Shown here: positions 46,147-49,965 of the stretch, in pieces
Layout: the number at the start of each line of letters is the position of its first letter
Numbering within the stretch: position 1 is the stretch's first letter
Source: Immundisolibacter cernigliae
GTDB lineage: Bacteria; Pseudomonadota; Gammaproteobacteria; Immundisolibacterales; Immundisolibacteraceae
Assembly (NCBI RefSeq): GCF_001697225.1
Contig: NZ_CP014671.1
Location: forward strand, 3,100,001 to 3,164,000
Direction of reading: 5' to 3'
DNA length: 64,000 bases
Translations under genes and position numbers: made by a program
The notes under the pieces: generated by a model
What the model saw: only the letters and a program-made list of their open reading frames with translations
Told to the model about the DNA's origin: nothing
Databases searched by the model: none

Positions 46147-46773
46147 TCACCGCAGGCTGTCGATAGCCTCGTCGAGCACGCGCTGCCAGTCCGGTCCGGT
46201 CAGGCGACGGTAGCCGTCCGGATCGCGGGCCGCGGACGACAGCACCACGTCCGGCGCCGGATCGCGCAGCAGCGCCAGGCTTTGCCGCAGGGTGTCGCGC
46301 TGCGCGGCGGCGACGTAGGTGCCCCAGCCGGCGCCGTCCGGAAACAGCGTGTCGCCGGTGAACAGATACGTTGGTCCGTGCGCCGAGCGAATGCGGTAAC
46401 AGGTGCTGCCGGGCGTGTGGCCGGGCGTGGGGATCACATCCAGGTTGGCCAGGGGTGTATGCGCTGCATCGAAGGCGACGTCCACCGGCGAGATTCGGCC
46501 GGCGAAGGGTGCCTCCAGCGCATGACAGCACAGCCTGGCGCCAAAGCGCCGGCGGATGTCGGCTAGGCTGGGTGCCACTTCGTCGCGGTGACTCAGGTAC
46601 TGCCAGGCAACGCCGCCCAGGCGCTCGATGGCGTCCAGTTCCGCCGCCAGGCCGGTGTTGTAGAACAGCACGTTGCCGTCCGCGCGCAGCCACAGGTAGG
46701 CGTGGGTGGTCACGGCGGGACCGAACGGGTATTGGGCGGCGGTTTGCCACAGGTCCGGGAACAGCTGCTGCAT
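46147..46773 (-). CDS. Metallo-beta-lactamase-fold protein with degenerate metal site
   Basis: This is a 208-residue MBL-fold protein starting MQQLFPDLWQTAAQYPFGPA, with a GGAGG ribosome binding site before ATG 46773. The usual HxHxDH motif is replaced by YLSHRDEVAP, keeping one H and one D. PTPGHTPGSTCY and FTGDTLFPDG are normal, but the final metal histidine region reads SSAARDPDGYRRL without a histidine. Zinc binding may be weak or mononuclear. The function is unknown. It is divergent from the Ntn-hydrolase gene, with an 86-base gap. An upstream extension to 46830 is less likely to be coding. Confidence 0.8.
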   Translation of the reverse strand: MQQLFPDLWQTAAQYPFGPAVTTHAYLWLRADGNVLFYNTGLAAELDAIERLGGVAWQYLSHRDEVAPSLADIRRRFGARLCCHALEAPFAGRISPVDVAFDAAHTPLANLDVIPTPGHTPGSTCYRIRSAHGPTYLFTGDTLFPDGAGWGTYVAAAQRDTLRQSLALLRDPAPDVVLSSAARDPDGYRRLTGPDWQRVLDEAIDSLR

Positions 46774-46859
46774 GGTGGTTTCCTCCGGTTTGATGGGCCG
46801 CCCCGGCGTCGGGCGGGCGGCTGATAGCATTGCCGCACCTGTACTAAAGATGTGCTGCC

Positions 46860-47456
46860 ATGACCATAGCCGTTGCCGTGCGCAAGGGTGGCGAAATCGT
46901 GATCGCCGCCGACACTCAGAACAATTTCGGCCACAACCGGGCGCCGATCGCCAACCACCGCACGCAGAAAATCCTGACCGTGGGCGGCAATCATCTGGCC
47001 ACCAGCGGCTGGGGGCTGTACGCGAACATCCTGGACGATTTCCTGGCCCGCAAGCGGGCGCCCAAGCTCGACACCGAGCGCGACGTGTTCCGGTTTTTCC
47101 AGACCTTCTGGAAGGTGTTGCACGAGCACTATTCGCTGGTCAACGATCAGTGCCAGCACGAGGAGGAGCGTTCGCCGTTCGGTGACCTGGACGCCTCGTT
47201 CCTGCTGGTCAACGGCGGCGGCATCTTCTTCGTGTCCTCCGACACCAGCGTGACCGAGTTCCAGCAGTACTACGCGGTCGGCTCGGGGGCGGAGTTCGCG
47301 TTGGGCGCGCTGCACGCGCTCTATGACAGCGACCTTGATGCCGAGACGCTGGCCCGGCGCGCCTGTGCCGCGGCCATGGCCTTCAACGTCTACTGCGGCG
47401 GGGACATCGACGTGTGCCGGATCACGGACACGGCCGCCGCTGCCCGGGTGCCGTGA
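46860..47456 (+). CDS. Proteasome-fold Ntn hydrolase (HslV/20S-like)
   Basis: This is a 198-residue protein whose sequence resembles proteasome beta subunits and HslV. After removal of Met the N-terminus is TIAVAVRKGGEIVIAADTQ: T2 would be the nucleophile, D18 the equivalent of Asp17, and K37 (RTQKIL) of Lys33. TSGWGLYANILDDFL and the C-terminal AVGSGAEFALGALHALYD match the second half of the fold, including the GSG turn. It is not HslV itself, since no HslU ATPase is adjacent and the sequence is divergent; known bacterial homologs of this kind are Anbu and BPH. The stop overlaps the start of the FAD oxidase gene (GTGA). Substrate and partner are unknown. Confidence 0.8.
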   Translation: MTIAVAVRKGGEIVIAADTQNNFGHNRAPIANHRTQKILTVGGNHLATSGWGLYANILDDFLARKRAPKLDTERDVFRFFQTFWKVLHEHYSLVNDQCQHEEERSPFGDLDASFLLVNGGGIFFVSSDTSVTEFQQYYAVGSGAEFALGALHALYDSDLDAETLARRACAAAMAFNVYCGGDIDVCRITDTAAAARVP

Positions 47457-48886
47457 ACGAGGCTGATCGGGCAGGTCTTCTGGCGCGCCTGGCGGCCACG
47501 CCGGGCTGCGACTGGCGCACCGATGCCGATGCCATGGCGCCGTACCTGGCCGAGCAGCGCGGCCTGTATCGCGGCGCCGCATTGGCGGTGGCGCTGCCGC
47601 AGGACACCGCGGCCGTGTCGGCGCTGGTGCGGGCCTGCGCGCGGCTCGATCTGGCGCTGGTGCCGCAGGGCGGCAACACCGGCCTGTGCGGGGGCGCTGT
47701 GGCGCAGGACGCGGCGCGGCAGGTGGTCGTCAGCCTGGAGCGGCTGGACCGGATCAGGGCTATCGATCCGGCCAATTTCACCCTCACGGCCGAGGCCGGC
47801 TGCATCGTGCAGCGCGTGCGGGAAGCGGCGGCGGACGAAAATCGCCTGTTTCCGCTCAGCTTCGGCGCCGACGGCAGCGCGCGCCTGGGCGGGGCGCTGA
47901 GCACCAACGCCGGCGGCACCAACGTGCTGCGCTACGGCAACGCGCGCGAACTGACGCTGGGCCTGGAAGTGGTGCTGGCCGACGGGCAGGTGTGGGATGG
48001 CCTGACGGCGCTGCGCAAGGACAACACCGGCTACGACCTGAAGCAGTTGTTCATCGGCGCCGAGGGCACGCTGGGCATCATCACCGCGGCGGTGGTCAAG
48101 CTGTTTCCGCTGCCGCGCGAGACGGCCACCGCCTGGCTGGCCTGCCCGTCGGTCGAGGCCTGCGTGGCGGTTTTCGGCCGGCTGCGGGACGCCAGCGGCG
48201 ACGCCGTGACCGGTTGCGAACTGCTATCGCGCACGGCGCTCGATTTCGTGCTGCGCCATATGCCAGGCGCGCGCGATCCGCTGGATGCCCCGGCGCGCTG
48301 GTATCTGTTGGTGGAACTGACCAGTTCCAGCGCGTCCGCCGGTCTGGCGACGGCGCTCGAAGCCGTGCTCGAACAATGCCTGAACAACGGCCAGATCAGC
48401 GATGCCGCCGTTGCCGCCAGCGCGCGCCAGGCGGCGGAGTTCTGGCGCCTGCGCGAGGGCGTGGCCGAGGTGCAGCGCCACGAAGGCGCCAGCATCAAGA
48501 ACGACGTGGCGGTGCCGGTGTCGGCGGTGCCGGCCTTCGTTGCGGAGGCCAGCGCGGCGGTGCAGGTCGCCTGTCCGGGGCTGCGCGTGTGCGCCTTCGG
48601 CCACATCGGCGACGGCAACCTGCATTTCAACCTGTCGCAGCCGGTAGGCATGCCGGTGGAACAGTTCCTTGCGCAGTGGGACACCCTGACCGGCCTGGTC
48701 AATGCCGTGGTCGCCCGGCATCGCGGCTCGATTTCCGCCGAACACGGCATCGGACTGCTCAAGCGCGATGCCCTGGCGCAGCATGAACCGGCGGTGGCCA
48801 TCGACCTGATGCGTCGCGTCAAGGCAGCTCTGGACCCACAGGGCCGTCTGAATCCGGGCAAGCTGCTGCCGCCGACGCAGGAGTGA
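47453..48886 (+). CDS. GlcD/D-lactate-type FAD-linked oxidase
   Basis: This is a 477-residue flavoprotein with a PCMH-type FAD-binding domain (about 30-220, VPQGGNTGLCGGAVAQD, NAGGTNVLRYGNARELTLGLEV in pieces, FIGAEGTLGIIT) and a C-terminal FAD-linked oxidase domain ending in the metal-binding AFGHIGDGNLHFN and SAEHGIGLLKRD blocks. This family oxidises D-2-hydroxy acids such as glycolate, D-lactate or D-2-hydroxyglutarate and passes electrons to a quinone or cytochrome. The start is GTG 47453, overlapping the Ntn-hydrolase stop. Two small cytochromes c follow, so a cytochrome acceptor is plausible. Confidence 0.9.
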   Translation: MNEADRAGLLARLAATPGCDWRTDADAMAPYLAEQRGLYRGAALAVALPQDTAAVSALVRACARLDLALVPQGGNTGLCGGAVAQDAARQVVVSLERLDRIRAIDPANFTLTAEAGCIVQRVREAAADENRLFPLSFGADGSARLGGALSTNAGGTNVLRYGNARELTLGLEVVLADGQVWDGLTALRKDNTGYDLKQLFIGAEGTLGIITAAVVKLFPLPRETATAWLACPSVEACVAVFGRLRDASGDAVTGCELLSRTALDFVLRHMPGARDPLDAPARWYLLVELTSSSASAGLATALEAVLEQCLNNGQISDAAVAASARQAAEFWRLREGVAEVQRHEGASIKNDVAVPVSAVPAFVAEASAAVQVACPGLRVCAFGHIGDGNLHFNLSQPVGMPVEQFLAQWDTLTGLVNAVVARHRGSISAEHGIGLLKRDALAQHEPAVAIDLMRRVKAALDPQGRLNPGKLLPPTQE

Positions 48887-49030
48887 CGGCGCCGGCGCCC
48901 GCTGGCCTGCGCGCGGCTGACCGGCGGCCGCTTGATCAAGATCACGGTCCATTCCGGTGCGGCCACGTTAGGCTGTGGCCCGTTCACCAGAACACCGTCC
49001 CTTGGACGCACAACAAGAGGAGTTCCGCCG

Positions 49031-49471
49031 ATGCAACCCAGATCCGGATTTTCGGGCCGGTCCCGCGCCGCCGCCGTGGCTGGCGCCGGCCTGATCGCCA
49101 TGCTGTACGCCGCCAGTGCGCCGGTCCTTGCGGCGACCGAGGGCGCCCAGCAGCAGGCCAGACGCGACTATCAGAAATACTGCGCATCCTGTCACGGACC
49201 CGAGGGGCGGGGCGATGGCCCGGTGGCGCAGGCGATGAAGGCCATGCCTGCCGATCTGACCCTGCTGAGCATGAACAACGACGGCAAGTATCCCGCCGAC
49301 AAGGTGCGCGAGATCATCGACGGCCGCGCCGATGTGAAGGCGCACGGGCCGCGCGCCATGCCGGTGTGGGGCAAGGAGTTTTATGTGTCGGCCGAAGGCG
49401 TCGGCCAGCGCCAGGCCCATGACCGTATCGAAGGGCTGACCGATTACCTGCAGCGCATGCAGAAGCAGTAA
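49031..49471 (+). CDS. Class I cytochrome c (small, periplasmic)
   Basis: This is a 146-residue protein with a signal peptide (about 1-35, RAAAVAGAGLIAMLYAASAP), one heme-binding CASCH (in YQKYCASCHGPEGRGDG), and a likely axial methionine in RAMPVWGKEF. AGAGGAG precedes ATG 49031 closely. It is similar to the second cytochrome at 49543, so the pair arose by duplication. Both lie downstream of the FAD oxidase gene and could accept its electrons. Confidence 0.9.
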   Translation: MQPRSGFSGRSRAAAVAGAGLIAMLYAASAPVLAATEGAQQQARRDYQKYCASCHGPEGRGDGPVAQAMKAMPADLTLLSMNNDGKYPADKVREIIDGRADVKAHGPRAMPVWGKEFYVSAEGVGQRQAHDRIEGLTDYLQRMQKQ

Positions 49472-49542
49472 TCGGCGTCGCAGCGCCGGCTTGGCGCGGC
49501 AGCCGATGGAATGGCGTTTTTCAACCCATGGGAGGGAGTGTC

Positions 49543-49965
49543 GTGTCCGACATCAAGACAAACCGCAAGCGCGTCCGTTTTGTGCTCTCGGCTGCGTTGC
49601 CGCTGGTGCTGGCCAGTGGTGCCACGCTGGCTGCCAGCGAAGTAAGTGAAATGCAGCGGGAGGATTTTTTTGCCTACTGCGCATCCTGTCATGGGCCTTC
49701 GGGGCACGGTGACGGGCCGGTAGCAATCGAGCTCAAAAAGCGGCCGACCGATCTGACGCAGTTGGCCAAGAACAACAACGGCAATTTTCCGTATGCCCGC
49801 GTGCGCGCCATCATCGACGGTCGCGGTCAGGCGCTCGGCATCCACGGTCCGGCGGAGATGCCCGTGTGGGGCGAACGCTTTGGCCGGGAAAGCGAGACCG
49901 ACATGCAGGTACGGGGAAAAATTCTCAGCATCGTCGATTACCTGGTCAGCATCCAGGAAAAATAG
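49543..49965 (+). CDS. Class I cytochrome c, paralog of the preceding gene
   Basis: This is a 140-residue protein with an N-terminal signal (RVRFVLSAALPLVLASGATL, about 9-28), heme motif CASCHGPSGHGDG, and axial methionine in AEMPVWGERF. The GTG start at 49543 is supported by GGGAGGG just upstream (49530-49536). The spacing of heme motif, DLT(Q/L)L and MPVWG is the same as in the first cytochrome. No terminator is evident in the 118 bases to the acetate kinase stop. Confidence 0.9.
   Translation: MSDIKTNRKRVRFVLSAALPLVLASGATLAASEVSEMQREDFFAYCASCHGPSGHGDGPVAIELKKRPTDLTQLAKNNNGNFPYARVRAIIDGRGQALGIHGPAEMPVWGERFGRESETDMQVRGKILSIVDYLVSIQEK

Follow-up and report, generated by a model that had tools for sequence, protein, structure and literature searches.

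The window, a stretch of 64,000 nt, contains a gene of 198 codons, designated BPHx, which lies divergent from a gene for an MBL-fold protein and immediately upstream of an oxidase gene. The relevant features are the following:

46147–46830, minus strand: MBL-fold protein (PF00753), divergent from BPHx; translation may actually begin at the ATG at 46773
46860–47456, plus strand: BPHx, a BPH-like proteasome-fold N-terminal nucleophile protein of 198 aa with a Met-Thr start
46863–46865, plus strand: codon for the putative catalytic Thr1, which would be exposed once Met is removed; nearly all relatives have Ser
46911–46913, plus strand: codon for Asp17, a conserved column across relatives
46968–46970, plus strand: codon for the putative catalytic Lys36, equivalent to Lys33 of the 20S beta subunit and Lys37 of Td-BPH
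47130–47192, plus strand: pore-loop segment YSLVNDQCQHEEERSPFGDLD, clade-specific, flexible and of low model confidence
47280–47288, plus strand: GSG turn, Gly140-Ser141-Gly142 (numbered from Thr1)
47394–47402, plus strand: clade-specific Cys-Gly-Gly close to the C-terminus, Cys179-Gly180-Gly181 (numbered from Met)
47453–48886, plus strand: GlcD-like FAD-linked oxidase, whose GTG start overlaps the BPHx stop (GTGA, 47453–47456)

BPHx matches the Pfam family Proteasome (PF00227) above its curated cut-off (37.8 versus 22.4 bits, E = 2e-9), this being the sole Pfam family found in the protein, and none of the NCBIfam models attains its cut-off with it. The initial annotation had recognized the Thr, Asp and Lys of the proteasome active site and the GSG turn, with no adjoining ATPase, and both observations were borne out: counting from Thr1, the catalytic set comprises Thr1, Asp17, Lys36, the oxyanion Gly49 and Ser141 of the GSG turn, all in columns kept across the aligned relatives, and there is no ATPase gene beside BPHx. 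An in-frame TAA is situated five codons 5′ of the ATG, and ATG, GTG and TTG are absent from the interval, indicating that the protein starts with Met-Thr and has no propeptide; Met-Ser or Met-Thr starts were also found in its relatives. Additionally, another species of the genus carries BPHx at 98% identity (dN 0.010, dS 0.165, dN/dS about 0.06), which argues against a chance open reading frame; the gene is under purifying selection.

The oxidase and MBL neighbourhood is conserved at the genus level only and constitutes weak evidence of function. The divergent MBL gene reported initially is present, and its product has SHRDE in place of the expected HxHxDH, suggesting an atypical metal site. 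The proposed coupling of BPHx to the oxidase stands within the genus, where the overlap between stop and start also occurs in the sister species, but not beyond it. Other genomes of the family hold the oxidase without BPHx, so any link between both genes is recent at most, and a functional partnership with the oxidase is not supported; the absence of BPHx from genome G369, from the same genus, is uninformative because the oxidase contig stops at that point. After the oxidase, a tandem pair of small proteins bearing CxxCH haem motifs is encoded (48932–49965); they share about 41% identity, comparing the window copy with the other copy of the sister species. In a gammaproteobacterial relative (L049), the gene is preceded by mnmE and followed by a PF10023 aminopeptidase gene. 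The search for conserved neighbours returned none shared by the whole clade of BPHx, conservation being limited to Planctomycetota and to pairs of close relatives.

The genome (3.24 Mb, single contig) contains one further PF00227 gene (735930–736442, minus strand), adjacent to hslU (734565–735893, minus strand); these form a canonical hslV-hslU pair separate from BPHx, so that BPHx is not the HslV of an unlinked hslU, as the initial annotation had allowed. HslV shares the proteasome fold and the catalytic residues with BPHx, and the genome does encode an HslU that could serve as unfoldase if BPHx were an HslV paralogue; moreover, grouping of the window pair with HslV was not rejected by an AU test (p 0.20). 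We nevertheless judge this highly improbable. BPHx is only 18–26% identical to HslVs and scores 38.4 and 39.3 bits with the NCBIfam HslV models, against cut-offs of 157.75 and 137 bits, respectively; HslV forms its own clade on a long branch (100/99); and hslU already has its cognate hslV beside it. Additionally, the pore loop of HslV is short and basic (nine residues, net charge +0.9), whereas that of BPHx is long and acidic (21 residues, net charge −5).

In sequence and in fold, the closest characterized relatives of BPHx are not HslV or the 20S proteasome but BPH ('Betaproteobacteria proteasome homolog'), with solved structures for Td-BPH (5ovs, 5ovt) and Cm-BPH (5ovu). A phmmer search of the PDB was led by Cm-BPH (5ovu, E = 1.3e-25) and Td-BPH (5ovs, 1.9e-24), followed by yeast beta5 (about 5e-6), with the best HslV at 7e-4. 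BPHx was modeled as a monomer by AlphaFold2 from the clade alignment (pLDDT 84, pTM 0.82), the pore loop being the weakest part. Foldseek ranked Td-BPH and Cm-BPH first (TM 0.82–0.86, E about 1e-15 to 1e-17, best 4.5e-17), with HslV behind (about 1e-10), so that the structure prediction proposed at the outset matches BPH best. Td-BPH and Cm-BPH are 14-mers, forming tetradecameric double rings; they bind epoxomicin at Thr1, lack a propeptide and have no known ATPase partner (PMC5777263). BPHx shares with BPH the fold (TM 0.86), the lack of a propeptide, the nucleophile/Asp/Lys/Gly/Ser active site, a longer acidic pore loop, the lack of an ATPase neighbour and the coexistence with HslVU, but their identity is only 27–36%.

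Genes of the window type are scarce and form a clade at 45–54% identity. Scanning genome contigs with the single BPHx sequence yielded no match, and an alignment query was needed to identify 20 named loci (44–56% identity), mostly in metagenome assemblies from Gammaproteobacteria, Myxococcota, Planctomycetota and UASB270, with Planctomycetota contributing 10 of the 20. Within the class of the window organism, five of 369 genomes carried a window-type gene (the window genome, the 98% match in the genus and three at 52–53%), and many others gave matches of about 30–37%, corresponding to ordinary BPH. The gene was present in three of 284 Myxococcota, two of them already known loci, and, among 398 Pseudomonadota, only in the window genome, the other 11 matches having the ordinary BPH pore-loop motif. 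The class of a Phycisphaerae locus contained a full-length match in 12 of 298 genomes; except for the starting genome, all belonged to a further set, designated 'p', that falls in neither the BPH nor the window group. Searches of plasmid and phage collections for BPHx gave no match, and viral contigs contained distant homologs only. An HslV-type gene also occurs in 17 of the 20 clade-bearing genomes. Three Phycisphaerae genomes of 1.8–1.9 Mb (G380, G383 and G384) had zero PF00227 matches, the Pfam model missing their BPHx, which may be their sole proteasome relative, although these assemblies are possibly incomplete. The UASB270 genome G373 has HslV and BPHx alongside an apparent Pup-proteasome locus (C6, L182:2743–7592), in which adjacent genes resemble, in order, Dop/PafA, the proteasome beta and alpha subunits, and Dop/PafA again; these names come from our reading of the sequences, and only the two proteasome genes are family-matched (PF00227).

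The phylogeny proposed initially was examined with HslV and BPH by maximum likelihood on 69 proteins, including 25 BPHs with both solved ones, and in a second tree without phage sequences. BPHx was placed near BPH and outside the clade of its solved members: the 25 BPHs, Cm and Td among them, formed a clade excluding the window group (99/100; 95/100 without phage sequences), and the window group was itself recovered with lower support (94/74 and 87/83, respectively). Support for a split between the window clade, 'p' and BPH on one side and HslV plus the phage group on the other was 97/91; in the tree without phage sequences, the split of these three sets from HslV alone reached 100/100. The backbone is weak, AU tests rejecting neither the grouping of the window pair with BPH (p 0.17) or with HslV (p 0.20) nor the union of the window clade and 'p' as a single clade (p 0.41), so a position outside the solved-BPH clade is a best estimate only. 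The BPHx clade may be the sister of BPH or a grade that gave rise to it.

The window clade also has a signature of its own. Residues W51, which follows the oxyanion glycine, W84, P106-F107-G108, D111 and C179-G180 (numbered from Met) are invariant in it, and its pore-loop segment, of 19–21 residues (mean 19.5, net charge −4.3, compared with 17.3 and −4.2 in BPH), shows the sequence NDQ...SPFGDLD, unlike BPH. The PFGDLD of the window clade contrasts with the xYES of BPH, where position 109 is S, T or A. W51, W84 and C179-G180 mark the clade, although the W51 and C179 columns alone are not diagnostic because three BPHs carry each. The nucleophile is Ser in 17 of the 19 window-clade members of the tree, with Thr only in the two from the window genus, and at least six changes at this position are needed over the three sets (window clade, 'p' and BPH). 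In Planctomycetota, proteins L052–L055 have the GSG serine replaced (GCA or GWG), and some members of this phylum may, judging from this replacement, have altered or lost activity.

It is quite possible, if not the reading we prefer, that BPHx is merely a divergent ordinary BPH from within the published cluster. BPH provides all its best matches in both phmmer and Foldseek and the AU test tolerates the grouping; besides, BPH has been described in Proteobacteria and PVC bacteria (Fuchs 2021, Table 1; PMC8665760), and BPHs with Ser1 exist outside Betaproteobacteria (Fuchs 2017). Against this are the well-supported BPH clade that leaves BPHx out in the best trees, the residue at position 108, which is Glu in 25 of 25 BPHs and Gly in 19 of 19 members of the window clade, and the invariant W84 and D111, both absent from BPH. 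Of the two outcomes contemplated in the initial annotation, a BPH-type protein or a new branch, the relation to BPH is upheld by the best sequence and fold matches and the separate branch by the trees; novelty is not proven, since published BPH collections may already hold the BPHx branch, and the clade may sit unremarked within that set.

Other clusters of proteasome homologs are known, with 22 further homologs described by Fuchs 2021 (PMC8665760). The AAH, CPH and PPH homologs of group I share with BPHx compact proteasome-like subunits and the lack of a known ATPase, and BPH is the point from which the clusters of this group radiate (PMC8665760), which would be compatible with BPHx being a CPH or AAH. 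This appears very unlikely to us: Table 1 of that work has no PVC members for either cluster, yet half of the clade loci are from Planctomycetota, and the phage-borne homologs, which by our assignment are probably AAH-like, are only 24–26% identical to BPHx and branch apart. For CPH (representative WP_008185288; Fuchs 2021), the comparison draws on the Table 1 distribution.

The more probable interpretation, in our judgement, is that BPHx represents a distinct, deep-branching lineage of BPH-type proteasome homologs, working as an ATPase-independent double-ring peptidase with a flexible acidic gate. Retention of the active site, the free N-terminus and the long acidic pore loop makes a BPH-like architecture and ATPase-independent action most likely, whereas the divergent pore loop and C-terminal motif imply that assembly or function may differ from BPH. 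Activity is unproven for any BPH, because Cm-BPH and Td-BPH were inert on all the peptide and casein substrates assayed, nor was a partner identified (PMC5777263). This inertness, together with the metabolic genomic contexts and the example of connectase, a ligase among proteasome homologs (PMC8665760), could indicate that BPHx is a specialised amidase or ligase rather than a protease. We find this unlikely given that epoxomicin, which is peptide-like, is bound productively by Td-BPH (PMC5777263) and that the BPHx model shows neither an extra domain nor the helical S3/S4 insertion of connectase. As a peptidase, and by analogy with BPH, BPHx would operate as follows. Removal of the initiator Met would expose Thr1, or Ser1 in most relatives, which would attack peptide bonds aided by Asp17 and Lys36, with Gly49 as the oxyanion hole. 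The subunits would assemble into a closed double ring with no need of a propeptide, its entrance gated by the flexible acidic pore loop instead of an AAA+ unfoldase, and the ring would trim or degrade unfolded or specific small substrates.

To our knowledge, neither the function nor the substrate of any BPH-type ring has been established, the published genome contexts giving no specific clue, and the collection of papers searched contained no later one on BPH function. The contexts of the BPHx clade (kdsD/kdsC, mnmE and the FAD oxidase) differ from those published for BPH, namely argG, pyruvate dehydrogenase and hsp33 (PMC5777263). Among the 10 Planctomycetota loci, kdsD lies upstream of BPHx in nine, as the next gene in seven and with an intervening transposase-like gene in two, and kdsC lies directly downstream in eight, followed by an LptC/LptA-like gene; the kdsD and kdsC products exceed the NCBIfam subfamily cut-offs. 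The spacing is tightest in L048, with 2 bp between kdsD and BPHx and a 4-bp overlap of BPHx with kdsC, an operon-like arrangement. The transposase-like genes separating kdsD and BPHx (L053:356–904 and L054:720–1268) are, by reading, of the REP-associated type. Among 30 control loci from the same class with kdsC but lacking BPHx, kdsD was adjacent in 24 (tblastn), at 13–176 bp, which indicates that BPHx is an extra gene within a pre-existing Kdo operon. This operon is the only conserved hint to a substrate, and it is not directly applicable to the window organism.

We tentatively propose, as a possibility, that these proteins constitute a subfamily of proteasome homologs that has not been described before and stands apart from BPH, thinly spread in Gammaproteobacteria, Myxococcota, Planctomycetota and UASB270, and that its insertion and maintenance between kdsD and kdsC in Planctomycetota reflects control or processing of some component of Kdo/LPS synthesis by a ring peptidase. 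With the kdsD-BPHx-kdsC operon, the hypothesis that BPH-type rings target an enzyme of Kdo/LPS synthesis becomes testable. Comparison with a separate lineage that has a distinctive pore loop and C-terminal motif would show which features of these rings are essential and which are tunable. HslV has been proposed as the ancestor of BPH (PMC5777263), and if the BPHx lineage is a grade ancestral to BPH, it would bear on that descent.
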